Positions 7,926-32,543 of a stretch of 43,027 nt of DNA are shown piece after piece. This stretch comes from Flavobacteriales bacterium. GTDB lineage: Bacteria; Bacteroidota; Bacteroidia; NS11-12g; UBA955. The notes under the pieces were generated by a model, which was not told where the DNA came from, made no database searches, and saw only the letters and a list, made by a program, of their open reading frames with translations. The position numbers and the translations under genes are program-made. The stretch spans positions 1 through 43,027 of the forward strand of contig CANHRE010000013.1 in assembly GCA_947463095.1 (NCBI GenBank). The letters run 5' to 3'. Position 1 is the stretch's first letter. The number at the start of each line of letters is the position of its first letter.

Positions 7926-7933
7926 TATCTTTG
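7926..7933 (+). promoter_or_regulatory. candidate -7 element (TATCTTTG) for the Asp-box protein gene
   Basis: TATCTTTG matches the Bacteroidota -7 consensus TAnnTTTG exactly and lies 9 bases before the ATG at 7943, so the transcript would have almost no leader. It also argues for the ATG at 7943 over the in-frame TTG at 7931, which lies inside the element. No convincing -33 TTG is visible about 19 bp upstream. Confidence 0.5.
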
Positions 7934-7942
7934 TATCCGCAC

Positions 7943-10900
7943 ATGAACAAATCATTGCTCTTTCTTTCTGCATGGCTGCTGATGAACGCCGCCAATGCCC
8001 AAACTCCAGAAGGCATAATTCTGGGCAACATGAAACCCAGGAACATCGGCCCCTCCGGCATGAGCGGACGGGTTACTTCCATTGATGTGGTGCGCAGTCA
8101 ACCCCAAAGCATCGTCATCGGAACGGCCAGCGGTGGCGTATGGCGCAGCGATGATGGGGGTTTGGAATGGCAGCCGTTGTTCGACAAACAAACCGTGGGC
8201 AGCATCGGCGCCGTGGCCATCCAACAGAACAATCCATCCGTGATATGGGCCGGTACCGGCGAAGGCAATCCCCGCAACAGCCACAACAGCGGTAACGGCA
8301 TCTACAAAAGCATTGATGGCGGCCGCACCTGGACCCGCATGGGCCTGGAACTTACCCGAACCATCCACCGCATCATCATCCACCGCGACAACCCCGAGGT
8401 TGTTTACGCAGCTGCCCTCGGCTCCGCCTGGGGCAATACTGAAGATCGCGGCGTGTATAAAACCACCGACGGCGGTAAAACCTGGTCGCGCATCCTGTTC
8501 ACCAACAACAGCAGCGGCTGCGCTGAACTGATTGTTGATCCATCAAACCCCGATAAGCTGTTTGCCTCTATGTGGGATTTTCGTCGCCAGCCCTGGACCT
8601 TCCGCAGCGGCGGCCCCGGCAGCGGTTTGTATGTAACCCTTGATGGCGGAAAAACCTGGACTAAAAGAACCGATAAAGACGGACTTCCCAAAGGTGATCT
8701 GGGCCGTATTGGCCTGGCCATCTCCAAAAGTAAGCCCAACATCGTTTACGCCATCGTGGAAAGCAAAAATCTGGAGTTCTACCGCAGCACAGACGGCGGC
8801 TATCAATGGCAGAAAATGTCGGCCTCGGAAACCATGGGTAACCGACCCTTCTACTACAACGAAATATACTGCGACCCGCAAAACGAAAACCGCATCTACA
8901 GCCTTTGGAGCCAAGTGTCGAAAAGTGAAGACGGAGGCCGAAGTTGGCAGGTAATGATGAACTGGAACGATGTGCATCCCGATCACCATGCCTTCTACAT
9001 ACACCCCGACCAGCCAAACTACCTCATCAATGGCAACGATGGGGGCCTGAACTTCTCTTACGATGGCGGCAAAACATGGCGCTTCGTGGAAAACCTGCCC
9101 CTGGGCCAGTTCTATCATGTGGATGTGGACCAGGAAACCCCTTACAACATCTACGGCGGCCTGCAGGATAACGGCAGCTGGCGCGGCCCGTCATACATCT
9201 GGAAACAAGGGGGCATCCGCAACAGCTACTGGCAGGAGCTGTTCTTCGGCGATGGCTTTGATGTGGCGCCGTATCCCGGCGACGGAACCAAAGGATATGC
9301 CATGGCTCAAGGCGGAGAACTCGCCTTCTACAACCTGAAAACACACGAAACCTTCGGCATCAAGCCCGTGCATCCGGAAGGAAAGAAGCTGCGCTTCAAC
9401 TGGAATGCAGGCCTTGCACTGGATCCCTTCAGTAATGACGGCCTTTACTATGGCAGCCAATACGTGCATTACAGCAGCGACCGCGGCGCCAGCTGGTCCG
9501 TGATTTCTCCCGACCTCACCACCAACGATACTTCCAAGCAGCATCAGGAAAAAAGCGGTGGCCTGACCATCGATGCCACCAATGCCGAAAATCATTGTAC
9601 CATCCTGGCCATTGCTCCGAATAAACTAGAGAAAGGCCTGATATGGGTAGCTACCGATGATGGTAACCTGCAACTTACCCGCGATGGCGGTAAAACCTGG
9701 AATAACCTGAGCAGCAAGCTGCCCGGCTTGCCCGCGGGTTCCTGGATTCCCTACATTCAAACCGGACATTCCAAACCCGGCGTGGCCTGGGTGGTGGCCA
9801 ATAACTACCGTCGCAACGACTGGGATCCTTACCTGTACTATACCTCCGATTACGGGGCCACCTGGAAACGTATGGCCGATCCGAAAAAAGTACAGGGCCA
9901 CTGCCTCAGCGTATGGCAGGATGCCGTAGAACCCAAGCTGGTGTTTCTGGGTACCGAACAGGGCCTGTGGATCAGCACCGATGAAGGCAATAACTGGACA
10001 CGCTTCAATAAAAACTTCCCCGCTGTTCCGGTAAGCGACCTGAAGGTGCATACGCGCGAGCACGATCTGGTCATCGCCACCTTCGGCAGGGCTATTTGGG
10101 TGCTGGATGACATCACGCCACTGCGCGAAGTGGTTTCCGGAAGAAAGAAACCCCAGGAACAGAACATTACCCTGTTCCCCGTGCAGCCCGCCGTACGCGC
10201 AGCTTATAACCAGCCTGAAGGAGTGCGCTTTCCTGCCAATGGATTCTGGGAAGGGTCCAACAAGAGTAATGGCGCTCAATTATCATTTTATGTGAAGAAA
10301 TCAGCCTCGGATAAAGAAGAGAAAATCAAAGTCACCGGTATGGTGTTCAATGAACAGGGTGCAAAAATCAGAACCCATCGCTTCACGGTGGACAGCAGTG
10401 GATTCTACCGCATCCAATGGCGATTTGTGACTGATGGCATCCGCTTTCCTTCTGAAGGAAAGGTTGATAAAGACGCCGATTTACCGGAAGGCCCCAGGGT
10501 AGCTCCCGGCAGGTACAAACTGCTGCTGCAGTACGGTGCATTTAAGGATTCATCCTGGTGCACAGTGCTGGAAGACCCGCGTAAACCCTTCCAGCGCCAG
10601 GCCTATGATTCAGGCATGTACTTATTCAAACGCTTTGCCGCTGTGGCAACGCGCGCCCACGAAGCCTATGAAGGCATTAAAAATGCAGAGAAGTCACTGC
10701 TTGTCATCCGGGAAGCCATGAACTTCGCTCCGGACAGCCTGAAAGAGCAGCTACAAAAGGAAGGCAAAAAGCTGTCCGACAGCTTGCAGCAGTTTAAAGC
10801 CTTATTTATGTTGCCCGCAGATTTTCGCGGGTATGAAGATGTTACTGTTCGCCTTAACAACTTGTTGTATGAAGCATATGGTTATGTGATGAATGCAGAA

Positions 10901-11065
10901 GCTTATCCCGGTCGCAACGCGCTGGATGCAATCCGCATTGCTGACGACGAAACCAATAGAATTTGCGGTCGCCTGAATGTGTTCTTTGAAGGCTCGTGGA
11001 ATCAGTTCAGGAAACGTGTAGAACAGAACAGGGCGCCGTTGTTTCATGAAAATAAGAAGTTTTAA
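7943..11065 (+). CDS. secreted Asp-box (BNR/sortilin VPS10-like) beta-propeller protein
   Basis: A 1040-residue exported protein with a clear signal peptide (MNKSLLFLSAWLLMNAANAQ). Eleven Asp-box motifs (S/T-x-D-x-G-x-x-W) can be read, for example SIDGGRTW, TTDGGKTW, TLDGGKTW, SEDGGRSW, TRDGGKTW and STDEGNNW, covering about the first 690 residues; these cap beta-propeller blades as in VPS10/sortilin and sialidase-like proteins. The last third is a different, partly helical domain rich in charged residues. No T9SS sorting domain is visible at the C terminus. Such proteins are often annotated as glycosyl hydrolases, but no sialidase catalytic Arg triad could be identified, so the enzymatic label is not supported. 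The RND adaptor gene starts 5 bp downstream, suggesting cotranscription. Confidence 0.88.
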   Translation: MNKSLLFLSAWLLMNAANAQTPEGIILGNMKPRNIGPSGMSGRVTSIDVVRSQPQSIVIGTASGGVWRSDDGGLEWQPLFDKQTVGSIGAVAIQQNNPSVIWAGTGEGNPRNSHNSGNGIYKSIDGGRTWTRMGLELTRTIHRIIIHRDNPEVVYAAALGSAWGNTEDRGVYKTTDGGKTWSRILFTNNSSGCAELIVDPSNPDKLFASMWDFRRQPWTFRSGGPGSGLYVTLDGGKTWTKRTDKDGLPKGDLGRIGLAISKSKPNIVYAIVESKNLEFYRSTDGGYQWQKMSASETMGNRPFYYNEIYCDPQNENRIYSLWSQVSKSEDGGRSWQVMMNWNDVHPDHHAFYIHPDQPNYLINGNDGGLNFSYDGGKTWRFVENLPLGQFYHVDVDQETPYNIYGGLQDNGSWRGPSYIWKQGGIRNSYWQELFFGDGFDVAPYPGDGTKGYAMAQGGELAFYNLKTHETFGIKPVHPEGKKLRFNWNAGLALDPFSNDGLYYGSQYVHYSSDRGASWSVISPDLTTNDTSKQHQEKSGGLTIDATNAENHCTILAIAPNKLEKGLIWVATDDGNLQLTRDGGKTWNNLSSKLPGLPAGSWIPYIQTGHSKPGVAWVVANNYRRNDWDPYLYYTSDYGATWKRMADPKKVQGHCLSVWQDAVEPKLVFLGTEQGLWISTDEGNNWTRFNKNFPAVPVSDLKVHTREHDLVIATFGRAIWVLDDITPLREVVSGRKKPQEQNITLFPVQPAVRAAYNQPEGVRFPANGFWEGSNKSNGAQLSFYVKKSASDKEEKIKVTGMVFNEQGAKIRTHRFTVDSSGFYRIQWRFVTDGIRFPSEGKVDKDADLPEGPRVAPGRYKLLLQYGAFKDSSWCTVLEDPRKPFQRQAYDSGMYLFKRFAAVATRAHEAYEGIKNAEKSLLVIREAMNFAPDSLKEQLQKEGKKLSDSLQQFKALFMLPADFRGYEDVTVRLNNLLYEAYGYVMNAEAYPGRNALDAIRIADDETNRICGRLNVFFEGSWNQFRKRVEQNRAPLFHENKKF

Positions 11066-12135: not shown

Positions 12136-15100
12136 GTGTCTTTATCATCCCTCAGCATCAAAAGGCCGGTACTGGCCATCGTGATGAACCTGCTCATCCT
12201 ATTGTTCGGGTTCATGGGCATGCGCTACCTCGGTGTGCGTGAGTTTCCTTCCATAGACCCGCCGGTTATCACCGTGCGCACCAGCTACGCCGGTGCCGGT
12301 GCCGATATTGTAGAGTCGCAAATCACCGAGCCGCTGGAAAAAGCCATCAATGGCATCGCCGGTATACGGTCCATCTCCTCGGCCAGTAATCTGGGATCCA
12401 GCGTGATTACCGTGGAGTTTGACCTGAGCGCAAACCTGGAAGCAGCAGCCAACGACGTGCGCGATAAAGTGTCGCAAGCCGTGCGCAGCCTTCCCCGCGA
12501 CATCGATGGGCTTCCGGTGGTGAGCAAGGCCGATGCCAACAGCGATGCCATCATCACCATGACCGTGCGCAGCGCCAGCCGCGATCCGCTGGAAGTTAGT
12601 GACTTTGCCGAATATGTGCTGGCCGAGCGCCTGCAAACCATCCCCGGGGTATCCAACATCCAAATTTGGGGACAACGCCGCTATGCCATGCGCATCTGGA
12701 TGGATCCGGTAAAGCTTGCCGCCCATCGCCTCACACCGCAGGATGTACAACGCGCCCTTGACCGGGAACATATAGAACTTCCTGCAGGAAAAATTGCCGG
12801 CGACGCTACCGAACTGAGCGTGAAAACCCAAGGCCGGATGCGCAGCGCCAACGACTTTAACCGCCTTATTATCAATGAACAGGATGGTAAAACCGTACGA
12901 CTTTCCGATGTGGGTTACGCCAGCCTCGGCGTAGAAAACGAGGAGACCGTGCTGCGTGAACGCGGCGTGCCTATGATCGGACTGGCACTGGTTCCTCAGC
13001 CCGGCGCCAACTATATTGACATCTCCAACGAGTTCCGTAGGCGTTTTGATGAGATCAAGAAATCCGTACCGGCCGACTATGAAATCAACATGGCCCTGGA
13101 CAATACTGTTTTTGTGCGGCGCTCGCTGGAAGAAGTGGGCGAAACACTCCTCATCGCCCTGCTGCTGGTGGTGGTTATCATCTACCTGTTCTTTCGCGAC
13201 TGGCTTATTGCCCTGCGCCCGCTGATTGACATTCCCGTATCGCTGATAGGTGTGTTCTTCCTGATGTACCTGATGGGCTATTCGGTGAATGTGCTTTCGC
13301 TGCTGGCTATTGTGCTGGCTACCGGGCTGGTGGTAGATGATGGCATTGTGGTTACCGAAAACATCTATAAGAAGGTAGAACGGGGCATGTCGCCTAAAGA
13401 AGCGGCACTGAAAGGATCTTCAGAAATCCTCTTCGCCGTGTTGTCCACTTCGGTAACGCTGGCCGCCGTATTCCTGCCGGTAATCTTTATGCAGGGCTTT
13501 GTGGGGCGTTTGTTTCAGGAGTTCGGCGTAGTGCTTGCCGGTGCGGTGCTTATCTCCGCCTTCGTTTCGCTTACACTTACGCCCATGCTGAATGCCTATC
13601 TGGTGCGCAAGAACAACAAGAAGAGCCGTTTTTATGTTGCCACAGAGCCCTTCTTTCAAAAGCTCAATGAAGCCTATGAGCGCTCGCTTAGTAAATTTCT
13701 GAAGCGACGATGGCTTGCCTTTGTCGTGCTTCTTGCCTGCGTTGCCCTGATTCTGGGTGTGGGAAGCCTGCTGAAAAGCGAACTGGCCCCCATGGAAGAC
13801 CGCGGCTGGATGCGCATGAGCATCACCGCCCCTGAAGGCGCTACCTTTGAATATACCGATGCCTTCCTGCAGCAGCTGAATAACTTTATTGAAGATTCCG
13901 TGCCTGAACGTAGGCTGGCACTGGTGGTTACTGCGCCCTCGTTTTCGGGTTCCGGCGCCGCCAATACCGGCTTTGTTCGTCTCATGCTGAAAGATGAATC
14001 CGAACGCAGGCGGAGCCAAAGCCAGATTGCCCAATACCTCACCAAAAAGGCCGGGGGCTATCCCGATGCCAAAGTATTTGTTATTGAACAACAAACCATT
14101 TCTACCGGCGGCTTTGGAGGATTGCCCGTGCAGTTTGTCATTCAGGCACCCAACTTCGAGGCGCTGAAGCAAAAACTGCCGCTGTTTATGGATGAAGCCC
14201 GCAAGGATAAAACCTTTCAGGTGGTGGATGTGAACCTGAAGTTCAACAAGCCCGAGCTGATGGTAACCATCGACAGGGAAAAGGCTGCAGCCCTGGGCGT
14301 TCAAACGGCAGATGTTGCCCAGACACTGCAACTGGCCTTCGGTGCGCCGCGCCTCGGCTATTTCCCCATGAACAACAAGCAGTATCAGATCATCGGCCAG
14401 TTTGAACGCGCGGGCAGAAACAGCCCGTCCGATCTAACAGGCATTTATGTGCGCAACAAAACGGGCAACATGATACGCCTGGGCGATGTAGTTCAAGTGG
14501 AGGAACAAAGCAACCCACCGCAGTTGTATCACTATAACCGGTATATGTCGGCCACGGTATCGGCGTCGGTGGTCCCCGGAAAAACCATTGCCGATGGCAT
14601 CAAATCCATGAAAGGAATAGCAGGGCGCACGCTGGGAGAAGGGTTCAGCACGGAACTCACCGGTGCCAGCCGCGACTTTGCCGAAAGCTCGGGCAACCTG
14701 CTGCTGGCCTTTGTGTTGGCCCTGCTGCTGGTGTACCTTATCCTGGCAGCGCAGTTCGAAAGTTTCAGCGACCCTTTCATCATCATGCTCACGGTGCCAC
14801 TGGCTATGGCCGGTGCTGTGCTGGCCTTGTGGTACTTCAACCAGACGCTGAACCTCTTCAGCCAGATTGGTGCCATCATGCTGGTGGGGCTGGTAACGAA
14901 AAACGGCATCCTGATTGTTGAATTTGCCAACCAGCGCAGGGCCCACGGTGAAGCAAAGCGCGACGCCATCGTACGCGCCAGCGTATTGCGCCTCCGTCCC
15001 ATCCTGATGACCAGTCTGGCTACCGTGCTTGGTGCGCTGCCCATAGCGGCTTCGCTGGGGGCTGCCTCAGAAAGCAGGCAGGGAATGGGCATCGTGATCA

Positions 15101-15219
15101 TCGGTGGATTGCTGTTCTCGCTGGTACTCACCTTGTTTGTGGTTCCCGCTGCCTATTCCTTGCTGGCCAGAAAACATGTATCCACGGAACTCAAACATGC
15201 CTCCGATGAACTGGACTAA
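12136..15219 (+). CDS. RND multidrug efflux permease (HAE-1/AcrB-like)
   Basis: Inner-membrane proton-driven pump of 1027 residues, typical of the HAE-1 family. The proton-relay residues are present: Asp401 and Asp402 in LVVDDGIVV (TM4) and Lys922 in LVTKNGILIVEF (TM10), corresponding to Asp407/Asp408/Lys940 of AcrB. It has the duplicated layout of TM1, a large periplasmic loop, TM2-6, TM7, a second loop and TM8-12. The start is GTG at 12136 (SLSSLSIKRPVLAIV), matching the family N terminus. The carboxylate/lysine set favours an organic-compound exporter over a metal exporter. The TolC-like gene starts inside its last 14 bp, and the adaptor gene precedes it, so this is a complete three-gene pump. 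Confidence 0.95.
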   Translation: MSLSSLSIKRPVLAIVMNLLILLFGFMGMRYLGVREFPSIDPPVITVRTSYAGAGADIVESQITEPLEKAINGIAGIRSISSASNLGSSVITVEFDLSANLEAAANDVRDKVSQAVRSLPRDIDGLPVVSKADANSDAIITMTVRSASRDPLEVSDFAEYVLAERLQTIPGVSNIQIWGQRRYAMRIWMDPVKLAAHRLTPQDVQRALDREHIELPAGKIAGDATELSVKTQGRMRSANDFNRLIINEQDGKTVRLSDVGYASLGVENEETVLRERGVPMIGLALVPQPGANYIDISNEFRRRFDEIKKSVPADYEINMALDNTVFVRRSLEEVGETLLIALLLVVVIIYLFFRDWLIALRPLIDIPVSLIGVFFLMYLMGYSVNVLSLLAIVLATGLVVDDGIVVTENIYKKVERGMSPKEAALKGSSEILFAVLSTSVTLAAVFLPVIFMQGFVGRLFQEFGVVLAGAVLISAFVSLTLTPMLNAYLVRKNNKKSRFYVATEPFFQKLNEAYERSLSKFLKRRWLAFVVLLACVALILGVGSLLKSELAPMEDRGWMRMSITAPEGATFEYTDAFLQQLNNFIEDSVPERRLALVVTAPSFSGSGAANTGFVRLMLKDESERRRSQSQIAQYLTKKAGGYPDAKVFVIEQQTISTGGFGGLPVQFVIQAPNFEALKQKLPLFMDEARKDKTFQVVDVNLKFNKPELMVTIDREKAAALGVQTADVAQTLQLAFGAPRLGYFPMNNKQYQIIGQFERAGRNSPSDLTGIYVRNKTGNMIRLGDVVQVEEQSNPPQLYHYNRYMSATVSASVVPGKTIADGIKSMKGIAGRTLGEGFSTELTGASRDFAESSGNLLLAFVLALLLVYLILAAQFESFSDPFIIMLTVPLAMAGAVLALWYFNQTLNLFSQIGAIMLVGLVTKNGILIVEFANQRRAHGEAKRDAIVRASVLRLRPILMTSLATVLGALPIAASLGAASESRQGMGIVIIGGLLFSLVLTLFVVPAAYSLLARKHVSTELKHASDELD

Positions 15220-20378: not shown

Positions 20379-22688
20379 TCAGCGCATCAGGCTGATATCA
20401 CCACTGAAGGCTGTGATTTCGCTTTCCGGATTATTAAAGGTGCAGCGATATACATAAGTTCCCTGCGGACAAACCTTTCCCTTGTAGGTGCCGTCCCAGT
20501 AATTCTTCGGGTCGCGCGTTTGATAGACAATCTCACCCCAAAGGTTGTACACAAGGAGGTTGTAATTGGTAATCGCGTTTTGCAGTGCTGAGGGTGTAAA
20601 CAGTCCAAATTGGTCGTTAACACCGGCGCTGGAACCGGGAGTAAACACGTTAGGGAACCAGTATAAAGGTTTGGATCTGGCGGTCAGTATTGTTGAAGCG
20701 GTGTCATCGCAGCCGTAAGGTGTGTTGGCAATCAGTGTTACGGTGTATTTACCATACATGTCGAAAGTATGCACGGGAGATTCAACATTTTCGTAGAACT
20801 GATCACCGAAATCCCAATACCAGAGGCTGTCATACTGTGATTGATTCCGGAATTGTATCGGCTCCAGCATTCTGGGTTCATCAGGCGTATAATCAAACTT
20901 GGCGATGGCACGTGGATACACCGTCAAGGGCTTTATGACCGTATCGGAGCAGCCGTAGCTGTTGGTTACAGCCATCCAGATCTGGTAGTTGCCGAACTTG
21001 TTGTAGGTTATGGTTTCATCGGCATTGGTGGAGAAGCGCTTATTGCCAAAATCCCATTTGTACTTCGTGATGGTTCCCCCACCCGCTGCCGAGCCGTTTT
21101 TGAAGGTGATGGGCGAGTATTGGCAGTCGTTGCTGAAGCTTATTTGTGCGTAAGGTTTTGGTGCGATGAACAGCTGGCGTTCCGCGGTATCCTTACAGCC
21201 GTTGCTGTTATACACAATCAGTCGAACGGTGGGGATACCCACGCCGCCGTAGAAGTATGAAGCCTGTTTGGCATTCACCTTAGGCCCGCCCATGCCAAAA
21301 TCCCACCAGGTGCCCGTGATGAACCCGGCACCAGGCCAGCTTTGGGATTCAAACTTCACATTGGCATTTTCGCAGGTATCGCTCACCAGGAACTTTGCTG
21401 TAGGCTTGGGGATGATGACCAGGTTTTTATAAGCCGTATCCTGGCATCCGCTTTGGGAACGAATAATTAAACGGGCGGTGTACAGACCGGATGGTGAATA
21501 ATACGCCACCGGGTTCTGCGCGCTGCTCAGCTTTCCGTTGCCGAAGTTCCATTGCCAAGAAGCCACCTTGTCTGTAGCGCCTATGCCGGAAAGGTCTTTA
21601 TAGATGATGCTGTCAGATTCACAGTTGCCGCTGATGGAGAATGCTGCTTTGGGATAAGGCGTTGTATCGGTGATGGTCCAGTTTCCACTGAAGTTTTTGC
21701 CTGCGCGGTAGCTTACCAGGTTGCTGGTGGTGTTTACCGAGCCGTTCGGAGGATAGTTCCAGGTGCTAGTGGCGGGCATCCACTTTATAGCGCCGATGCT
21801 GGCCTCAGTGATGGTATTGTTGCTGGCGGTAAGTTCTGCATCCGCATAAGTAAAGCCGAGTGTAGCATCAGGCTTGGTGGTATAGCCGTCATCTTCTATT
21901 ACCCAGAAGCGGTCAATGAGGCGTTGGCTGTTTTCGCCCTGACATTCATTTTCCGTATGAAATACCCCTGTAGGCATGGGCCTGTTGTTGGGCACGGGAA
22001 CGTTGGTAGTGGGATAAGTACAAACCCTGAAGAAGCCAGAATCGGCTGCAGTTTGCACGCCAAGACTGTTGCAGGTGAATACGAACGGTACCCTCACGCC
22101 GGTTCTGGTAACAAAGGGAACGGTGAACAAAGGTCCGCCCACCCCATCACGTATGTTCCATTGCAGCTTGCTGTACCCCGACCCAGGTGGATTTTCAGAA
22201 ATGATACCACCCGCTCCGGAATTCAAAATGGCCGTAGGGTTTTTGTTGTTAATGATCAGGGTATTGCCCTGAAGATCAAGCGTATTTCCGAACAGGCGCA
22301 GCAAACCGGAACCACCCTTGTTGTATCCTCCTCCCACCAGGATATTCTGGGTGAGGCGCTTCGTGCCAAATCCTACCAGTGACAAGTCGGGGAAGGCAGT
22401 TTGCCGGGTTCCGCCGATGTTCTGATTGAATCCCCAGAGTTCTACCCGGCCGTTGTTGTCTGTAAACACCGGGGTTGTGCCGTTGTTGTTCCAGTCGCCA
22501 TAAATCCTGAAGCGCGCATTGGGATAAAGGGTGATGCGCGCATCGCCGGTGGCTGTATAATCTCCTTGAGCCTGGCTTACCACCACAAAAGCCCCATCGG
22601 TTACCACAATACGGGCACCGGATTGGACCAGACCTTGGGCGAAGGTTTCTGTCCCCAGGCAAGCTAAAAGAACCCAGAAAAAACGCAC
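20379..22688 (-). CDS. PKD-repeat surface protein with gliding-motility/T9SS type B C-terminal domain
   Basis: A 769-residue secreted protein. It has a signal peptide (FFWVLLACLGTETFAQG) and about 330 residues of beta-rich sequence I do not recognise. At least four PKD-type domains follow, marked by WQWNFGNG, GTWWDFG, YKWDFGNK and WYWDFGDQ. The C-terminal sorting domain (about 95 residues) contains FPNVFTPG, the Y-N-LW-GE-IV core, WDGTYKGK and a final SGDISLMR. This domain directs export by the type IX system and surface attachment in Bacteroidota. The start is GTG at 22688, 4 bp after the tail-fibre-like gene, so the two form an operon. It is probably an adhesin or matrix protein; the ligand is unknown. 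Confidence 0.92.
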   Translation of the reverse strand: MRFFWVLLACLGTETFAQGLVQSGARIVVTDGAFVVVSQAQGDYTATGDARITLYPNARFRIYGDWNNNGTTPVFTDNNGRVELWGFNQNIGGTRQTAFPDLSLVGFGTKRLTQNILVGGGYNKGGSGLLRLFGNTLDLQGNTLIINNKNPTAILNSGAGGIISENPPGSGYSKLQWNIRDGVGGPLFTVPFVTRTGVRVPFVFTCNSLGVQTAADSGFFRVCTYPTTNVPVPNNRPMPTGVFHTENECQGENSQRLIDRFWVIEDDGYTTKPDATLGFTYADAELTASNNTITEASIGAIKWMPATSTWNYPPNGSVNTTSNLVSYRAGKNFSGNWTITDTTPYPKAAFSISGNCESDSIIYKDLSGIGATDKVASWQWNFGNGKLSSAQNPVAYYSPSGLYTARLIIRSQSGCQDTAYKNLVIIPKPTAKFLVSDTCENANVKFESQSWPGAGFITGTWWDFGMGGPKVNAKQASYFYGGVGIPTVRLIVYNSNGCKDTAERQLFIAPKPYAQISFSNDCQYSPITFKNGSAAGGGTITKYKWDFGNKRFSTNADETITYNKFGNYQIWMAVTNSYGCSDTVIKPLTVYPRAIAKFDYTPDEPRMLEPIQFRNQSQYDSLWYWDFGDQFYENVESPVHTFDMYGKYTVTLIANTPYGCDDTASTILTARSKPLYWFPNVFTPGSSAGVNDQFGLFTPSALQNAITNYNLLVYNLWGEIVYQTRDPKNYWDGTYKGKVCPQGTYVYRCTFNNPESEITAFSGDISLMR

Positions 22689-22692
22689 GGGA

Positions 22693-24492
22693 TTACTTGT
22701 TAATGGTCTGTTGAAGCTGTTCCAGGAGTTTTTTATTCATGTCCAGCAACTCCTGCTGTTGTTTTCTGAGCTGTTCAATCTGAGCTTGTTGCTCCTGAAT
22801 GGCCTTTACGATGGGCACAACAAATTCCGCATATCGCAAGCCGTAGTCATCTTTTTCATTCTTTGGTGCATCAACACCGCTGAAATCAAACCCCAACGCT
22901 TTGGCAGCCTGTTCCACTTCCTGAGCGATAAAGCCTGTACGACGGTAAAACTCAGCTTCATACTTTTCCTTCCAATACACAGAATCGTGCAGGTTATGGG
23001 TTTGATTGAACTTGCGGATATCCAGCAGGTAGCTCACCGGACGGAGTTTCATGATAAAGGGTAAACCCTGAATATCTTCTTTGATCTGGGTTTTATAGCG
23101 ACCATCGCTCAGGTTGGTCCAGCCTACCACACCCCCAATGGATGTGATTGCAGCATTGCCCAGACGGATCTGGTTGTTGGCCGTAGTATTGGTGCCGTTT
23201 CCCAATGCCGTGGTGTTATTGAATGCGCCATTGCTCGGTCCGGCCAAATATCCAAAGGATGAATTGTAATAGCCTGTTGTTGTCAGATATCCCGCATAGT
23301 ATCCCAATCCGGAGTTGTAATAGCCGGTTGAATTGTAATATGCTGCAGCATAGCCCATAAAGGAGTTCCCATAACCTTGTGAATTGCTCGCAAGGGTATA
23401 GGTTCCATAACCGGAATTATAGTTGCCATAGGTGTTTGACCCCAGTGAGTAATAACCTGATGCCGTATTCAATACTCCACCAACATTATACAATAATGCA
23501 TACATACCTATGCCCACATTATAGGTTCCATTGGTGTTGGAATAGAGGGCGCGATAACCGGCTCCTACGTTGTACACACCAGATGTATTGCTGCTCAGCG
23601 CCTCATAACCAAGACCCACGTTATATGTTCCCGTAGCATTGCTATACAGCGCACTGTATCCAAGTGCGGTATTGTAGGAACCAGAGTTGTTTGCAAACAT
23701 GGCCTGACCCCCTATCGCCGTATTTTGAACACCTCCGTTATTGGCGTTCATCACGCTTCTGCCTAGGGCCAGGTTGTCCGTGCCAGAAGAATTGACATTT
23801 GTTCTGGAACCCAAGGAGATATTGTTATTAACAGGATTTAATTCTCCGAACCAGGCATTATTAGTTCTGATTCTAAGGGGAATATTTGTGGTGGTGCCAA
23901 GAAAATTGGTTGTAGCACTTAAACCGGAGTTCCCTGTGGTGTTCCAGAAACCCTTCAGCGGAACAAAACTGTTATTCTTAGACAGGTATAAGGTGTCATT
24001 GATGAGCCTGAGCGTTTGTAATTCGTTGGTGGTGTCGTTGTCCAGGATTTTTTGTGTGGACACGAGGGTCACCTGACCATAGTCGTTAATGCTCACAATC
24101 GGGAACTCGTTTACTTTCCCATACGTGCCGGTTACCACACCGGTTTTTTTCAAGTCCACAGAACCTTTTCCCTGTATGAAACCACCAGTGAGGCCAGCGC
24201 CAAACGTAAGTGAACGCATCATGGGCACCCATTTGTTCTGCTCATAATACCAGAATCCTACGGTATCGTCGGTTTGATAAATCAGCAAACCATTCGAGGG
24301 TGCCGGAATCAGGAATTTCTGGGCTCTGCTGAGGCGTGGAACCAGCACCCCTTTATTGGTGGCGCTTACATCCAGCATGGCTGAACCTGCCGGCAATGCA
24401 CCGGTTTCATTGATTCCTACATTCTGGGCAAAGGAAGGAATTGAAGTTGCAAACAGGTAGAGGCAAAGGGCCCTAAGTAATTGTTTTTTCAT
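22693..24492 (-). CDS. tail-fibre-like surface protein with 17-residue repeats and endosialidase-type (S74) chaperone domain
   Basis: A 599-residue protein with a signal peptide (LCLYLFATSIPSFAQ). Residues 1-230 are beta-rich head and stalk sequence with an AMLDVSATNKGVL block seen in many Bacteroidota tail-fibre-domain proteins. Residues 239-418 consist of eleven 17-residue repeats of the type YNVGLGYEALSSNTSGV, which probably build a YadA-head-like left-handed beta roll. The end (residues 458-599) is an intramolecular chaperone domain of the S74 type, with LSDGRYKTQI, FIAQEVEQ and DYGLRYAEFVVPIVKAIQEQ, then a coiled coil. In phage tail spikes this domain trimerises the protein and cuts itself off. 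It precedes the PKD/CTD gene by 4 bp. I see no other phage gene nearby. Confidence 0.9.
   Translation of the reverse strand: MKKQLLRALCLYLFATSIPSFAQNVGINETGALPAGSAMLDVSATNKGVLVPRLSRAQKFLIPAPSNGLLIYQTDDTVGFWYYEQNKWVPMMRSLTFGAGLTGGFIQGKGSVDLKKTGVVTGTYGKVNEFPIVSINDYGQVTLVSTQKILDNDTTNELQTLRLINDTLYLSKNNSFVPLKGFWNTTGNSGLSATTNFLGTTTNIPLRIRTNNAWFGELNPVNNNISLGSRTNVNSSGTDNLALGRSVMNANNGGVQNTAIGGQAMFANNSGSYNTALGYSALYSNATGTYNVGLGYEALSSNTSGVYNVGAGYRALYSNTNGTYNVGIGMYALLYNVGGVLNTASGYYSLGSNTYGNYNSGYGTYTLASNSQGYGNSFMGYAAAYYNSTGYYNSGLGYYAGYLTTTGYYNSSFGYLAGPSNGAFNNTTALGNGTNTTANNQIRLGNAAITSIGGVVGWTNLSDGRYKTQIKEDIQGLPFIMKLRPVSYLLDIRKFNQTHNLHDSVYWKEKYEAEFYRRTGFIAQEVEQAAKALGFDFSGVDAPKNEKDDYGLRYAEFVVPIVKAIQEQQAQIEQLRKQQQELLDMNKKLLEQLQQTINK
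23239..23778 (-). repeat. eleven in-frame 51-bp coding repeats
   Basis: Within the tail-fibre-like gene, codons 239-418 form eleven consecutive 17-residue units of the pattern (Y)N-x-[GA]-x-G-Y-x-A-L-x-S-N-x-x-G-x, with the last incomplete. The nucleotide copies have diverged, so these are old protein repeats rather than a recent tandem expansion. The spacing of exactly 51 bp keeps the frame. Confidence 0.85.
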
Positions 24493-26056: not shown

Positions 26057-29000
26057 TTAACGAATCAGCGTGATGACACCACTCACTTCTTTTTCTTTTT
26101 CCTGGTTCTTGAACCGGTACTTCAGAACGTAGTAGTAAGTGCCTTCAGGAGCTTCTGCGCCGGTGTTGTTCACACGTCCGTTCCAGTCAATCTTATGATC
26201 TTCTGAGGCGAACATGCGCTGACCCCAACGGTTGAAGATTTTCAGGTCATACATTTCGTGACCTTTGATTGGAATATCGAACACATCGTTCACACCGTCC
26301 TTGGTTTTGTTCGGGGTGAACACGTTCGGAATCTCAATCTTGGAGAAGAAGGTGTTGCACACCAACTTACATACGGTGTCTTTACAGCCGTTGTCGTTCT
26401 CCACAATCAGACACACATACCAGCAGCCAACACTATCGTATTGATTACATACAATCTGGTCGGGTTTGTTGTTGTTCTCAAGGAACATGCCGCCGGTCTG
26501 GGTGATGTCGCTGTCGTGGTAGAAGCCCCAGCGGTACTTGGTAGCATCAACAGACGGAGTGCGGTCGAAGCAGAAGGTAGGAATATTGCTGCTGTCGATG
26601 GTGAAGTCAGCACTTACACCGAGCACAGTAAACTGCAGGGTATCATCTGGCTTGGAGCACCATGGGAAGGGCGACGTAGGCCTGAAGTTGGGCTTCAGAA
26701 TGGCGTAGTAGTCACCTTTAGTGCTGAAGCTTCTGCGCAGGGTGTCGTTACCGGTGGTGATGGTATCCGTTTGATTGGTATTGCGGTTTACGAATGTCCA
26801 TAGATAGCTGTTGTAGATGGTATCGCTCTTATCAATGAAGGTGTTGAGTTCACCGATACAAATGGTCTGTTTTTCCACTTCACCGATTACATCTCTTCTG
26901 GCCAGTACTTCCACAATCATAACGGGCTGACCGCCTTCGGTAGTATCAGGATAGGTAGCTGGGCAGTATCTGCGGATGGAAGGAGGCACCACCAAACTGT
27001 CAAACTGATCGAGGAATACGTAGTAAATACCGGGCTTGCTGTATTTGTGGGTTACATCTACTGGAGTGGTGGTAGTAAATACCGCACCATCGCCAAAGCG
27101 CCACAACCAGTTTGCGTTGGCAGATGGGTTCACGCTGATGTTGCGGAACTTCACGCTGTCGTTTACGCAGATGCGGTTGCTGGTGCTGAATTCAAATACG
27201 GGAATCGGTCCTGGAATCTTGATTTTCAGTTCGAAGCTGTCTTCGCAGCCCAGTTCTGTTTTCACCTTCATGCGCACAGTGAATTCACCGTTGCGGGTAT
27301 AGTCGTGGGCCACACGGCTGGGATATCCGCCGCTGAACACACTGTACTTGTTGTTGCGTTTGCCATCACCCCAGTCAATAAACCATTCAACAATGCGGTC
27401 GCAGGAGCGTCCAAGACGCATCTTGCAGGGGTCGAATACTTTGCTGCTGTCGAAGAGTTCCACGATGCCTTTGCAGGAAGGAACACTCAGATTCAGGCTG
27501 AAATTGGCTTCAACACCGGTTACATAAATGGCCTGGCTGAGGGTATCGCGACAACCAGTTGAGTCGCCAGTGGTTACGCGGCTGGTGAACAGACCGTAGT
27601 CTTTGTAGTACTTGCTGCTGGTAGCACCGCCACCCATTTGAATGCTGGGGTTACCAACGCCTGTTGCACCGTAAGGGAAGTTGCCGAATATGGTGTTGCT
27701 GTTACTCTTGTCGTCGTCTTCTTTAGCCCAGTCCCAGCGTGTGATGCGTTCGCGGTTTGGAACATTGTTCACAATGTCTGCCTGACGTTTGGCATCGCGC
27801 CAGTAGTCAATAGGGTTGAGCAGGCCTTCAAATTCAGGGATGAGCGAGAAGTAACGGAAGGTAGGTTCAGCGGTGAGGGTCTTGGTTCCCGCGCAAAGAA
27901 TGGTATCGCTGTAAGAAACCTTATTGTAGAAGCCTACAACTACGCGCTTGGAAGAGCGCTCGAAACAACCGTTGTTGCTGCGCTGCAGCAGTTCAAGGAT
28001 GTAGTAACCATTATGTTCAGGAACAAACTGCACCGAGTTGGCAAAGGTTTTACCACCGCCAAAGTGGGTATCCATTGGACGGATGCTGGTGTCGCGGTAG
28101 TTCAGAATCTGCATAGATGATTTGTCCGGTACTACATAATAGCGCACCAGGCCACCGAAGCCGGCGGTATCAATACAACCGCGGGAACCTGTTGCTGGCT
28201 GCCCAAGGGTACCCTTGTTGTTCCAGATCATCTTGGCAAGCTGTGTCGGAGTCAGATCATAGATGTCGAAGCCGAGCCTGTCAACAGCGCGCTTGAACAG
28301 ATCCCAGGCCTTGGTAATGTCGGCAGCGGTATCCCACTTGCTGATTACGGAAGTAAGGGTGGTGTCGCGCCATAAGGTAACAGGAATACCACTGGCCGGG
28401 GTTTTCTGGTAATAGCGAATCAAGTAGTTGGCCAGCTTTTTCTTGTTGCTGCCGGGCAGATATACATAGCGCTTGTATTCCTCAGTGAGGTTCAGGCGAT
28501 AGTATTGATCGTAGTTGCGTCCTGCGTTACCGGTGTACAGAGAGTAAGTCTGGTCGGCCAGGTCATCGGTCTTGGTTTTGTTGCCGCCGATGGTGCGAAC
28601 GATGATGGTATCGTTTTTACAGATTTTCAGAGGATTCTTGTTCGGGTACAACACGTCAAAGCGGGGGTCCAGCAGCGGGAAGCATAGGAACTTATTGTAC
28701 CAAACGGTATCCACACACTCGGGCTTTTGACGTGGGGCAGGACCAGGTTTGAAGCCGTTGCCAATAACCAGACCTACAGTTACGCAACCGGATGGGTCTG
28801 CAATCATGGAAGCAGTGTAATAGGTAGAGAATCTATTCGGATATGATCCACCCATCTGGTAGCCGGGGTGTGGCATTCCGGGAGGCCTGTTGCCCTGTGG
28901 GATGCCACCGGTTCCTACCCAGTTGTTGCGGCCGCTGGCAGAATCCAGGTTGATCATAAAGAAGCCCGGAGTACAACCCGGCTTGGTGTCTTCAATTTCG

Positions 29001-30829
29001 AAAGTCACACCATACATGGGGTTCAGTGATCCCAAACATTCAATGGTGTTGGCAGATTTCTTCAAACGCCTGGCTGAAGGAGGCATGATGGCAATCTGCT
29101 GCGTGTTTTCGCTGGTACACTTTAAGGGGTGGGCTGTATCCTGGTGGAAGAGTCTTACCGTGAAGCAGCGTGGTACCGTGCGGTAAAAAATCTTGCGGTA
29201 TTCTGCTGAATCAGCGGGCGTCCAGAAGATGTTCACCGTGGTACAGCGGCGATCAACATCCACAAACAGCGACTTACGCATGGGGCGGTTCTGCTTGATG
29301 AAGGTATCGCGCAGGATGGTTTCCCATGGAGTGTAAAAGTGCTGGGGGAGTGAGTCGCGGCTCCAGCGGCAGTTCTTGCCTACATTTTTACCGGCTTTGG
29401 TATCAGTAGTGCATCTTGGCGCATAATCGTCACCAAAATCCCATAGGCGAACAACATTGTCGCGGTTCCGCACCTGTGGGCTAGCTTTTACGGAAGTTTG
29501 TCCGTTGGGCTTGGGTGAGAAGTTATGTCCCAGACCCCAACCTTTTATGTAGAAGGTGGAGTCGTCATTGACCATGTTCCTGTCGTTGTGATAGAAAGTG
29601 GAGTTGTTCGGGAAATGAACCGTATCACGAGAGATACACTGGTATTTTTCTTCTTCCTTGATCCTGCCGAAAGGAATTTCAATGGTGGATGAAGGTCCGA
29701 GGATCAGGATGGTATCAAAAGAGGTGCGGGGACCACAAACAGGGTGGTTAAAAGTAAGGCGGATACGATACGGGCCGAGACCGGTGAAGTTGTGCTCGGG
29801 AGTCCATGTTTTGTCATCGGTATTGCGGGGGCCTGATGGTGGATCTCCGAAGTTCCACAGGAAGCCCGTTGCGCCATTTGGTGCTCCGCCTTTCACACCG
29901 AAGGTGATTTTCGGATCGGTGATACAGGTAGAATCTCTGTCGGCAATGATGGTAGCGCGGGCTTCAAAAACCTGCGCGGCTGCCGAGAAGGTAAAGGTTT
30001 CTTTACATCCGAATTTAGATTCAACAACCAGGGTGGTATTGTAGGTGCCTTCGCCTTTGAACCATTTGCAGAAGCGTGGGATACCCCAGTTGGTGCTGTC
30101 TTTGGTGCCATCGCCAAAGTTCCAGACGAACTTTTTGATGTCCTGTAATTGGATGTTGGAACGGTTGTCAAAACAGGCCTGTGCTGAATCGCACTTGATG
30201 GGCTTGGTGCTGGTGAAGCGGATACCCAGCTTCGCGCGCACGATGCCTACAGCCTTGAAGGTATCACGGCGGATACAGCCATTGGCGTCTTCCAGTTCCA
30301 CCGTCAGGTCAACCACGCCACCGCGGTCGTCTTTGAAGTCGAAGCAGAAGGTGCGCGGAGGCTGTGTGGTGTATTTGTGCACCAGCAGCTGACCGTCGCT
30401 CACCACAATGCGCATCTCTTTCAAGGTACTGCCGGGAACAGCTTTACTGCTGTCCACAAAGCAGAACTGATTGCCTTCGAAGCACTGTGTCTTCTGGTTT
30501 ACCAGCTTGAGGTTGATGGTGGGCCTTGGTTTGATTTGAAGGCTGAGGGAAGACTGGCAGGGATTGCCGCCGATGGTGGTCTGGTACTTCACCGTGTAGG
30601 TACCCGGTGAGTTGAACACGAATGTGGTGATTTGCTGGCTGCTGGTTCCCTGACCGCCGAAATCCCAGCTATGGGATGTTCCGGCTGGGCTTCCGAAGAA
30701 GCGGATGGGGTTTCCTTCACACAGCGCACCGTCATAAGTGAACTGACACTGTGCCGATGCCGTCCGAGGAGCAGCAATGGCCAGGGCAGTACCAAACAAC
30801 AATACAAGTGTTTTGATATACCTGTTCAT
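26057..30829 (-). CDS. giant PKD-repeat surface protein with gliding-motility/T9SS type B C-terminal domain
   Basis: A 1590-residue exported protein. Residues 1-27 are a signal peptide (YIKTLVLLFGTALAIAA, then SAQ). PKD-type motifs occur near residues 54 (SWDFGG), 235 (VWNFGDG), 324 (LWNFGD), 462 (LWDFGD), 1152 (DWGDGK), 1242 (LWRFGDG) and possibly 1342 (LWTF). A central stretch of about 600 residues (roughly 520-1110) has no domain I recognise. Residues 1498-1590 form the sorting domain: IPNVFTPN, DLKIFNRWGQR, WNGR and final SGVITLIR. Many paired Cys suggest extracytoplasmic disulfides. I chose the ATG at 30829 because it starts the signal peptide and follows a -7 element; extension to 30880 reads through that promoter. 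It lies downstream of the sigma/anti-sigma genes and is probably a T9SS surface adhesin. Confidence 0.92.
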   Translation of the reverse strand: MNRYIKTLVLLFGTALAIAAPRTASAQCQFTYDGALCEGNPIRFFGSPAGTSHSWDFGGQGTSSQQITTFVFNSPGTYTVKYQTTIGGNPCQSSLSLQIKPRPTINLKLVNQKTQCFEGNQFCFVDSSKAVPGSTLKEMRIVVSDGQLLVHKYTTQPPRTFCFDFKDDRGGVVDLTVELEDANGCIRRDTFKAVGIVRAKLGIRFTSTKPIKCDSAQACFDNRSNIQLQDIKKFVWNFGDGTKDSTNWGIPRFCKWFKGEGTYNTTLVVESKFGCKETFTFSAAAQVFEARATIIADRDSTCITDPKITFGVKGGAPNGATGFLWNFGDPPSGPRNTDDKTWTPEHNFTGLGPYRIRLTFNHPVCGPRTSFDTILILGPSSTIEIPFGRIKEEEKYQCISRDTVHFPNNSTFYHNDRNMVNDDSTFYIKGWGLGHNFSPKPNGQTSVKASPQVRNRDNVVRLWDFGDDYAPRCTTDTKAGKNVGKNCRWSRDSLPQHFYTPWETILRDTFIKQNRPMRKSLFVDVDRRCTTVNIFWTPADSAEYRKIFYRTVPRCFTVRLFHQDTAHPLKCTSENTQQIAIMPPSARRLKKSANTIECLGSLNPMYGVTFEIEDTKPGCTPGFFMINLDSASGRNNWVGTGGIPQGNRPPGMPHPGYQMGGSYPNRFSTYYTASMIADPSGCVTVGLVIGNGFKPGPAPRQKPECVDTVWYNKFLCFPLLDPRFDVLYPNKNPLKICKNDTIIVRTIGGNKTKTDDLADQTYSLYTGNAGRNYDQYYRLNLTEEYKRYVYLPGSNKKKLANYLIRYYQKTPASGIPVTLWRDTTLTSVISKWDTAADITKAWDLFKRAVDRLGFDIYDLTPTQLAKMIWNNKGTLGQPATGSRGCIDTAGFGGLVRYYVVPDKSSMQILNYRDTSIRPMDTHFGGGKTFANSVQFVPEHNGYYILELLQRSNNGCFERSSKRVVVGFYNKVSYSDTILCAGTKTLTAEPTFRYFSLIPEFEGLLNPIDYWRDAKRQADIVNNVPNRERITRWDWAKEDDDKSNSNTIFGNFPYGATGVGNPSIQMGGGATSSKYYKDYGLFTSRVTTGDSTGCRDTLSQAIYVTGVEANFSLNLSVPSCKGIVELFDSSKVFDPCKMRLGRSCDRIVEWFIDWGDGKRNNKYSVFSGGYPSRVAHDYTRNGEFTVRMKVKTELGCEDSFELKIKIPGPIPVFEFSTSNRICVNDSVKFRNISVNPSANANWLWRFGDGAVFTTTTPVDVTHKYSKPGIYYVFLDQFDSLVVPPSIRRYCPATYPDTTEGGQPVMIVEVLARRDVIGEVEKQTICIGELNTFIDKSDTIYNSYLWTFVNRNTNQTDTITTGNDTLRRSFSTKGDYYAILKPNFRPTSPFPWCSKPDDTLQFTVLGVSADFTIDSSNIPTFCFDRTPSVDATKYRWGFYHDSDITQTGGMFLENNNKPDQIVCNQYDSVGCWYVCLIVENDNGCKDTVCKLVCNTFFSKIEIPNVFTPNKTKDGVNDVFDIPIKGHEMYDLKIFNRWGQRMFASEDHKIDWNGRVNNTGAEAPEGTYYYVLKYRFKNQEKEKEVSGVITLIR

Positions 30830-30862
30830 AAATGTTGATGTGTTCTTCTTTGGTAGAAATTT

Positions 30863-30870
30863 CAAATATA
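30863..30870 (-). promoter_or_regulatory. candidate -7 element (TATATTTG) for the giant surface protein gene
   Basis: Minus-strand TATATTTG is an exact TAnnTTTG match 33 bases before the chosen ATG at 30829, in the 57-bp gap after the anti-sigma-like gene. No -33 TTG is seen at the standard distance. If real, the giant gene can be transcribed separately from the sigma operon, possibly by another sigma factor. Confidence 0.45.
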
Positions 30871-30886
30871 GTCGTTCCATACTTTT

Positions 30887-31927
30887 TTACTGATTAGATG
30901 CACCTTTTAACCACAACATGACGGTTTTTTCTTGTTCCTGATGGCCGTAAAACCGGTATCGAACCTTGGCGATGTACATTCCTTCCTGCGCTGCATTGCC
31001 GTTGATGCGTCCATCCCATCCCGTCTCCGGGTCTGTAGTTGAAAACAATCTTCTGCCGCTGCGGTCGAAAATGCTGAGCTGGAACTGTTCCGCTCCGCAG
31101 ATAAGAACCCGGTATGGATCGTTGATGCCGTCGGCATTGGGTGTGAATACGTTGGGAATGAGCAGGTTGTTCTCAAGGTCGCAGCCCTGCACGGCAATCT
31201 CCTGTAATCCTGTTTCCGTTTCACAGATTTTGTTTCCCTGATGTTTCAGGTTGATGGTCACCTTGTGCTGATTCAGCACTGTGTACAAGATGCGATGTCC
31301 TCTTCCGGCTTCGCGGCCATTAATGAACCAGACGGGCTCATAGTAGGAGGCAGGTGCATCATGGCATATCAGTTCCAAAACAGAAGGAGCAATTTCGGTA
31401 TAACCAAGCCTGGGTCGTGGTGCGTGTAAGCAGGGATTATCCGTCTTGCCACTGCCATTCCCCTCTGGTTTCGGCACTTCCCCCAATGCAGCCGGATTTT
31501 CCTGCGGCATGGTGCTTTGTGGCAAAACAGAAGGGGATACGCTGCCGTTTTCTGATTCCGGTCGTATTTCTCCTTGTGGTTCAGAAGTTGGTTTAGCCCC
31601 GTTTTTTCTCTCGGGCGCAACTGCCTGCCCGGAATTAGGTTGCGCGGCTTGCGGTGCATTCGAGCTCTGGCCTGTTTCTGTATTTTGAGGAAGTGAATCA
31701 GGCTGTGTGTTTTGCCGTGTATAGGCGCGATAGGCCAGGTAGGAAGATGTTCCGATGAGCAAAGTGGCTGCGCCCTTGATAATCAATCCCTTCAGGGAAG
31801 CGGCGGCACTGCCGGCAGCAGCCTGGGTGGCTATTTGTCCGGAAACAGCCTCCCAAACCCCATCGGGTGCAGGAACTTCCACATGTTCCAGGTGATTCCT
31901 GAACATATCGTCGAACTGCTTATCCAT
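30887..31927 (-). CDS. membrane-anchored anti-sigma-like protein with T9SS/gliding-type C-terminal domain
   Basis: A 346-residue protein. Residues 1-45 are cytoplasmic and look like the short N-terminal segment found in Bacteroidota proteins next to ECF sigma genes (FDDMFRNHLEHVEVPAPDGVWEAV in two pieces: FDDMFRNHLE and PAPDGVWEAV). Residues 46-67 form one transmembrane helix with no signal-peptidase site. Residues 70-165 are a Pro/Gln/Asn/Ser-rich linker. Residues 255-340 match the gliding-motility C-terminal domain (LLIPNVFTPNADGIND, QLSIFDRSGRRLF, GWDGRING, MYIAKVRYRF). The start ATG at 31927 overlaps the sigma gene by 8 bp. Sigma-factor control is inferred from position and topology. A sorting-type domain on an inner-membrane protein is unusual. 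Confidence 0.82.
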   Translation of the reverse strand: MDKQFDDMFRNHLEHVEVPAPDGVWEAVSGQIATQAAAGSAAASLKGLIIKGAATLLIGTSSYLAYRAYTRQNTQPDSLPQNTETGQSSNAPQAAQPNSGQAVAPERKNGAKPTSEPQGEIRPESENGSVSPSVLPQSTMPQENPAALGEVPKPEGNGSGKTDNPCLHAPRPRLGYTEIAPSVLELICHDAPASYYEPVWFINGREAGRGHRILYTVLNQHKVTINLKHQGNKICETETGLQEIAVQGCDLENNLLIPNVFTPNADGINDPYRVLICGAEQFQLSIFDRSGRRLFSTTDPETGWDGRINGNAAQEGMYIAKVRYRFYGHQEQEKTVMLWLKGASNQ

Positions 31928-32477
31928 TGCTGCTGCCCTCCATGGCCGCAATCATCCTCCGGAGCATATTGCGCGCCTTCAGTAACTGTGTCTTGCTTGT
32001 ATTTTCGCTGATGCTCAGCTGGTCGCCGATTTCCTTATGGGTGTACCCTTCAATGGCATACAAGTTGAACACGGTGCGGTATCCTCTGGGAAGCGACTGC
32101 ACGGCGCGCATCAGGTCCTGCATGCCAAGACGGGAAAAGGTTTGGTCATCAACACCAATATGGTAGGCCTCCTGCACATCGCTGAACCAGGGGTCAGATT
32201 TCTCCTTGCGGTACTGTTCAATGCACTGGTTCACCATGATGCGCTTCATCCAGCCTTCGAAAGAGCCTTCGTGGCGGAATTTGGCCAGCGACCGGAACAC
32301 GCGCACAAAACCTTCCTGCAGCATGTCTTTTGCTGTATCGCGGTTGTCGCAGTATCGGAGGCAAAGGGCGTACATCTTGGCTGAATGGTATTCGTATAGT
32401 TCTTTTTGTGCTCGTTGGTCCCCGTCCAGGCAGCGGCGGATGAGTTCGCGGTCCACATGTTCCTTTTCCGTACTCAT
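31920..32477 (-). CDS. RNA polymerase ECF-type sigma-70 family factor
   Basis: A 185-residue ECF (group 4) sigma factor. Region 2 is visible in AKMYALCLRYCDNRDTAKDM, then LQEGFVRVFRSLAKF and GWMKRIMVNQCIEQYRK. Region 4, the helix-turn-helix that reads the -35 element, is in LPRGYRTVFNLYAIEGYTHK and EIGDQLSISENTSKTQL. There is no region 1 or 3. The gene overlaps a membrane-anchored partner gene by 8 bp, the standard sigma/anti-sigma arrangement, and the giant T9SS-sorted protein gene follows; those genes are its plausible targets. The 111-bp upstream region contains a 12-bp direct repeat (32544-32573) that may be a regulatory site. Confidence 0.95.
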   Translation of the reverse strand: MSTEKEHVDRELIRRCLDGDQRAQKELYEYHSAKMYALCLRYCDNRDTAKDMLQEGFVRVFRSLAKFRHEGSFEGWMKRIMVNQCIEQYRKEKSDPWFSDVQEAYHIGVDDQTFSRLGMQDLMRAVQSLPRGYRTVFNLYAIEGYTHKEIGDQLSISENTSKTQLLKARNMLRRMIAAMEGSSNG

Positions 32478-32543
32478 GCAGCCATCCGGTGGTTGGAGTT
32501 GCTATTTAGTCGCAAACAGCTTTGTGTAGGTTGCCTGCAGATG

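Follow-up and report, generated by a model that had tools for sequence, protein, structure and literature searches.

An ECF sigma factor operon encoding a membrane-anchored anti-sigma-like protein with a T9SS sorting-domain homologue and a giant PKD protein

What could a C-terminal domain (CTD) of the type found on cargo of the type IX secretion system (T9SS) do on a single-pass membrane protein that is encoded beside an ECF sigma factor? The question is raised by three genes in the window, i.e., the whole stretch of 43,027 nucleotides from a Flavobacteriales bacterium analyzed here. Adjacent on one strand, they encode an ECF sigma factor, an anti-sigma-like protein with a single membrane pass, and a giant PKD protein, as an earlier note on this DNA had placed them. 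The features of the locus are, in window coordinates:

32507..32535, minus strand: ECF-type promoter GGCAACC-N19-CTA, 58 bp before the sigma ATG (conserved motif)
31920..32477, minus strand: ECF sigma factor, 185 aa (ORF, domain models, orthologues, tree)
30887..31927, minus strand: anti-sigma-like membrane protein with T9SS CTD-like C terminus, 346 aa (ORF, domain models, AlphaFold)
31793..31927, minus strand: its N-terminal anti-sigma domain, residues 1–45 (homology to barrel-type, Dma-like N termini)
31718..31780, minus strand: its transmembrane (TM) helix, residues 50–70 in the model (AlphaFold)
31163..31717, minus strand: its periplasmic tether, mostly disordered, residues 71–255 (pLDDT <50 for most)
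30893..31162, minus strand: its T9SS type B CTD-like domain, residues 256–345, without the RWG Trp (family models, AlphaFold)
26057..30829, minus strand: giant PKD protein with signal peptide and type B CTD, 1590 aa (ORF, domain models, conserved neighbor)
26060..26338, minus strand: the giant's type B CTD, with NRWG (family models)

The sigma factor is clearly of the ECF type (TIGR02937, 91.8 bits; Sigma70_r2 and r4_2), matching generic ECF models only. The anti-sigma gene starts with an ATG at 31927 and overlaps the sigma ORF by 8 bp, stop codon included. The ORF of the giant protein spans 26057–30880, and its best signal peptide fit was obtained from M18 (30829); counted from this start, the protein has the 1590 residues given in the earlier note. 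It contains PKD domains, and its CTD likewise scores above the cut-offs of the type B families CHU_C and TIGR04131. About 3.4 kb beyond it, another PKD protein whose CTD is of type B is encoded (769 aa, 20379–22688, minus strand), with NLWG in its CTD where others have NRWG. Between the two CTD proteins lies the gene of a 599-aa protein (22693–24492, minus strand) with N/S/G/Y-rich repeats and a C-terminal Peptidase_S74 (endosialidase chaperone) domain. The window also encodes a Sortilin-Vps10/BNR-repeat protein (1044 aa, 7931–11065, plus strand) upstream of an AcrB-type efflux gene (12136–15219).

We modeled the anti-sigma-like protein with AlphaFold, using an alignment of 17 proteins. The model has helices at residues 3–12, 24–37 and 50–70, the last of which fits a single TM span, followed by disorder from about 71 to 250 and a β-sandwich at 256–345 with pLDDT mostly >90. 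There is no cleavable signal peptide, and a domain of about 45 residues precedes the TM helix. Among 63 relatives the tether measures 118–300 aa, with a median of 171. The C terminus exceeds both curated cut-offs, i.e., 51.3 bits for CHU_C (PF13585, cut-off 27) and 46.2 bits for TIGR04131 (cut-off 35), and the motifs FTPNxDGxND, W(D/N)G and GxY are kept in the anchored CTDs. The anti-sigma architecture and the type B sorting domain that had been suggested for this protein are hence supported, the latter in the sense of homology to T9SS type B CTDs. TIGR04131 has 30 matches in the source genome; the other short full-length one, a 344-aa frame (C26), was considered as a second anchored CTD and rejected, as it is an ordinary signal-peptide cargo protein.

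A PDB sequence search with the anti-sigma gave no match. In the structure search, the anchored domain resembled the T9SS substrate CTD of NucA (8glk; Z 8.1, 72 of 75 residues), and translocon-bound substrate CTDs (8glk, 8gl8, 8gl6) were found among its structural neighbors together with PorZ (Z 8.0), RemA, RemZ, PorU and the RgpB CTD. Streptococcal Fn3-like domains fitted at equal or higher Z. Because T9SS CTDs have the common Ig-like sandwich and the Fn3-like fits are as good, the fold alone is no proof of a T9SS role, for which the sequence families appear to argue better. Against the alternative of an ordinary Ig-like fold, which the earlier note had named, the family models thus favor a CTD, but non-T9SS folds match the structure equally well or better.

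Dual membrane-spanning anti-sigma factors (Dma) consist of an anti-sigma domain, a TM helix, a disordered tether and a C-terminal barrel, and are encoded beside ECF21 sigma factors; examples are Dma1/Das1 and Dma2/Das2 of Bacteroides thetaiotaomicron (PMC13088901). We compared the 80 loci with the best sigma matches across Bacteroidota, whose downstream proteins have a common N terminus and differing ends. Among 77 ECF-linked proteins, 19 match OMP_b-brl_2, 12 match OMP_b-brl and 18, the window protein included, end in CHU_C, i.e., CHU_C and barrel appear as alternative ends on one scaffold. With barrel-type relatives used in place of Dma1 and Dma2, the N-terminal domain aligned to barrel-type N termini with an hhalign probability of 98.5 (E 3e-15). 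The barrel-type profile matched 63 of 64 CTD-type proteins at E<1e-3, compared with 0 of 64 after shuffling. As the barrel-ended layout is that of Dma and the N termini are homologous, we consider the window protein a Dma-type anti-sigma with its end swapped; since the C-terminal barrel is absent, we class it as a variant of the Dma kind and not as Dma. On the sigma tree the CTD label needs three changes (shuffled mean 32.6), which is compatible with two origins or with one origin and losses. RsgI_N was matched by only one member of the aligned ECF-linked set. Our literature searches found no anti-sigma with a T9SS CTD-like end, and the founding Dma paper (doi 10.1073/pnas.2321910121), which is outside their coverage, may mention one. 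As regards the expectation of a circuit of undescribed kind, a periplasm-crossing anti-sigma as such has a precedent in Dma (PMC13088901); the CTD-ended variant itself we did not find described.

Sigma relatives occur in 57 genomes; within the order, 61 of 108 genomes gave matches to the N terminus. In the 47 relative genomes with a readable adjacent partner of sigma, the sigma and anti-sigma genes are adjacent and the partner carries the CTD in 45, the exceptions being a truncated partner (G059) and one with another end (G016); these counts are inflated by kinship, and many of the relatives are metagenome-assembled genomes. Where downstream DNA was fetched, a giant ORF with a CTD (1605–2025 residues) follows directly, in 20 of 20 genomes from two families. 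The three genes thus co-occur in related genomes and form one operon with CTD cargo, in agreement with what had been expected from the window alone. In a comparison of the window with its congener G001, the sigma factor (94% identity) and the CTD (88%) are the most similar, followed by the N-terminal domain (76%) and the linker (42%); the omega of the anchored CTD is 0.08. We conclude from the conserved CTD next to a diverged linker and from the low omega that selection maintains the anchored CTD. In two anti-sigma genes (L116:8549-9619 and L152:8566-9642) the N-terminal anti-sigma motif is doubled in tandem before the TM helix, and similar doubling is found in short-type proteins, e.g., L098 and L108.

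CTD cargo adjoins 6 of 17 CTD-type loci, with three more giants running off their contigs (L112, L117, L137), and 0 of 59 other ECF loci among the 80 best sigma matches. Crocinitomicaceae-like genomes have CTD-type anti-sigmas without a cargo neighbor, so that the link between anti-sigma and cargo, which the earlier note had suggested testing, is strong, with exceptions. The source genome has SprA, as has every one of the 17 other CTD-type genomes; of 15 genomes with other module types that served for comparison, two gave no match and one a fragment only. Type B CTDs are known to bind PorP-like/SprF barrels (PMC9143113, PMC12618676). No PorP/SprF gene was found beside the window operon; the four of the genome are on contigs 20, 25, 40 and 51, and the window is on contig 13. 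In the source genome, the best match of the anti-sigma CTD is the CTD of the neighboring giant. Across genomes, the identity of anchored and giant CTDs was 35.4% for matched and 34.7% for mismatched pairs (permutation 0.31), i.e., anchored CTDs are no closer to the neighboring giant's CTD than to those of other giants and no co-adaptation shows. Co-evolution of the two CTDs was hence not found across genomes, in spite of the best match in the source genome.

The RWG-strand Trp is present in 27 of 29 cargo CTDs of the source genome, aligned to the genome's cargo profile, and in 20 of 21 giants, whereas 0 of 62 aligned anchored CTDs have it (Fisher 4e-21, kinship ignored). With moderate confidence, this difference leads us to read the Trp-less anchored CTDs as probably docked and retained, not exported. 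The two Trp-less cargo CTDs of the source genome (G000 C40:17984-19145 and C51:7457-8601; L174, L187) adjoin PorP/SprF. The RWG Trp is therefore not an absolute cargo requirement, and the cargo CTDs of this genome may comprise two shuttle classes. In Flavobacterium johnsoniae, none of the five conserved type B motifs can be dispensed with for secretion (PMC12618676); we do not equate the RWG strand with any of the published type B motifs A–E. Natural Trp-less CTDs provide a ready comparison for what makes a type B CTD exportable.

The promoter GGCAACC-N19-CTA lies upstream of the sigma gene with identical spacing and distance in three genus members. Of 78 upstream regions of the CTD group, near-copies among them, 58 contain it, mostly at a similar position. 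In the whole source genome the strict motif occurs seven times, which does not exceed the reversed control. Of these sites, only the one upstream of sigma is not inside a long ORF and has a gene start downstream of it. A regulon search with the strict motif in three genomes gave no more matches than the reversed-pattern control; one further strict match was found in G001 (L235). With the sole convincing strict site ahead of the operon, we predict that the regulon is mainly the operon itself, with caution on degenerate sites, as a weaker or degenerate regulon may exist beyond the strict ones. The motif is also found ahead of some sigma genes from loci with other module types and is thus not specific to the CTD-ended variant. 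A promoter of the GCAACC-N19-CTT type is found upstream of the sigma genes L098, L095, L136, L126 and L147, whose anti-sigmas have neither CTD nor barrel; this promoter type hence belongs to the sigma family at large. In F. psychrophilum, an ECF promoter class includes T9SS genes and one ECF/anti-sigma pair (PMC9723704).

Could the anchored domain be a ligand-sensing Ig-like domain that happens to be a CHU_C member, has no T9SS partner and senses a periplasmic wall or polysaccharide signal in an RsgI-like manner? Non-T9SS Ig/Fn3 folds among its best structural neighbors, the loss of the cargo's RWG Trp and the CTD-type loci without a cargo neighbor would all agree with this. We nevertheless consider it rather unlikely, as the sequence scores above the cut-offs of both families and keeps their three motifs, SprA was found in each CTD-type genome checked, and same-operon CTD cargo occurs across an order.

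The earlier note had proposed that the anchored CTD competes for a T9SS receptor, and that unexported cargo or a jam displaces it and frees sigma. Such a circuit is suggested by the fact that anti-sigma and cargo, encoded in one operon, carry homologous domains, and by the best match to the neighboring giant in the source genome, a relation that fails across genomes. Moreover, the consistent loss of the RWG Trp, together with the missing co-similarity, makes direct competition by a cargo mimic less likely, and with the operon as the only convincing strict target in the source genome, release by a jam would raise the supply of the jamming cargo. We therefore regard this circuit as improbable. 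Very unlikely in our view is a third arrangement, in which the CTD is exported via SprA with the N terminus still in the inner membrane, so that the tether threads the translocon and either senses the outside or transmits a pull of the T9SS motor that releases sigma. The domain does resemble translocon-bound substrate CTDs, and judged from its length, a tether of 118–300 residues would suffice for periplasm and outer membrane; however, the translocon would be blocked, the anchored domains are without a residue kept by most exported ones, and no cleavage site was identified.

We therefore prefer to read the locus, with a probability of about 0.6, as an autoregulated, envelope-spanning switch of ECF sigma and anti-sigma that controls a giant PKD adhesin exported by the T9SS. 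Architecture, homology, conservation, promoter and operon layout support this switch as far as sequences can. Against it count the loss of the RWG Trp from the anchored domains, the missing co-similarity with the giants' CTDs, the cargo-free loci of Crocinitomicaceae-like genomes, the lack of an adjoining PorP/SprF gene and the occurrence of the promoter motif beyond this variant. The short cytoplasmic N-terminal domain would hold sigma, a binding predicted from homology and adjacency, one helix would anchor the anti-sigma in the inner membrane, and the tether would span the periplasm. The CTD-like end may dock on the outer-membrane T9SS or on a shuttle barrel (PorP/SprF- or PorV-like) and be retained there, although the fold does not point to a T9SS component in particular, as the Ig-like sandwich is common and Fn3-like domains fit as well or better; CTD and barrel in trans would then replace the barrel that Dma carries in cis. 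A change at the dock, i.e., in export competence, shuttle occupancy or outer-membrane state, would be passed along the tether and free sigma, which would transcribe its own operon and hence the giant cargo. As for the direction, we tentatively favor release when exporter or shuttle is available, which taken on its own is possible rather than probable; given the cargo operon as predicted target, release upon export competence is more sensible than release by a jam, which would add jamming cargo. Still more speculative, and in our opinion doubtful, is the idea that the anchored anti-sigma gauges T9SS or shuttle availability and so licenses synthesis of the giant cargo, as an FlgM-like checkpoint made from a Dma scaffold and a non-exportable cargo tag.

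The locus points to a second kind of outer-membrane-directed end for envelope-spanning anti-sigmas and shows a regulator that carries a homologue of a T9SS sorting domain. Should the docking prove real, the locus would offer a directly testable route that couples gene expression in Bacteroidota to type IX secretion, for which the worked-out example we found is PorXY-SigP.

With Dma, the window protein shares an adjoining ECF sigma gene, an N-terminal anti-sigma domain, one TM helix, a long disordered tether and a C-terminal module directed at the outer membrane. In contrast to Dma, which has its own outer-membrane β-barrel, it carries a T9SS type B CTD-like (CHU_C/TIGR04131, Ig-like) domain, and its operon, found in T9SS-positive genomes, also encodes giant T9SS cargo. 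The CHU_C/TIGR04131 domain and its motifs FTPNxDGxND, W(D/N)G and GxY are shared with T9SS type B cargo that has a PorP/SprF shuttle, as in SprB-SprF; here, however, an N-terminal cytoplasmic domain and a TM helix are found instead of a signal peptide, the RWG Trp is absent and no PorP/SprF adjoins. In Porphyromonas gingivalis, the CTD protein PorA feeds PorXY-SigP, so that there, too, an ECF sigma factor is downstream of a T9SS CTD-bearing protein (PMC7712824). PorA sits on the surface and acts via a two-component system, whereas in the window it is the anti-sigma in the inner membrane that bears the CTD. RsgI, the anti-sigma of the RsgI/SigI pair, likewise crosses the inner membrane once and has its sensing module beyond it, but it belongs to an unrelated phylum and its sensor modules are unrelated. 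In the FlgM/sigma-28 system, a sigma factor is tied to export status by FlgM, which is soluble and itself exported. If the preferred direction of release is right, the window locus would tie its sigma factor to export status as well, by means of a membrane-anchored protein.
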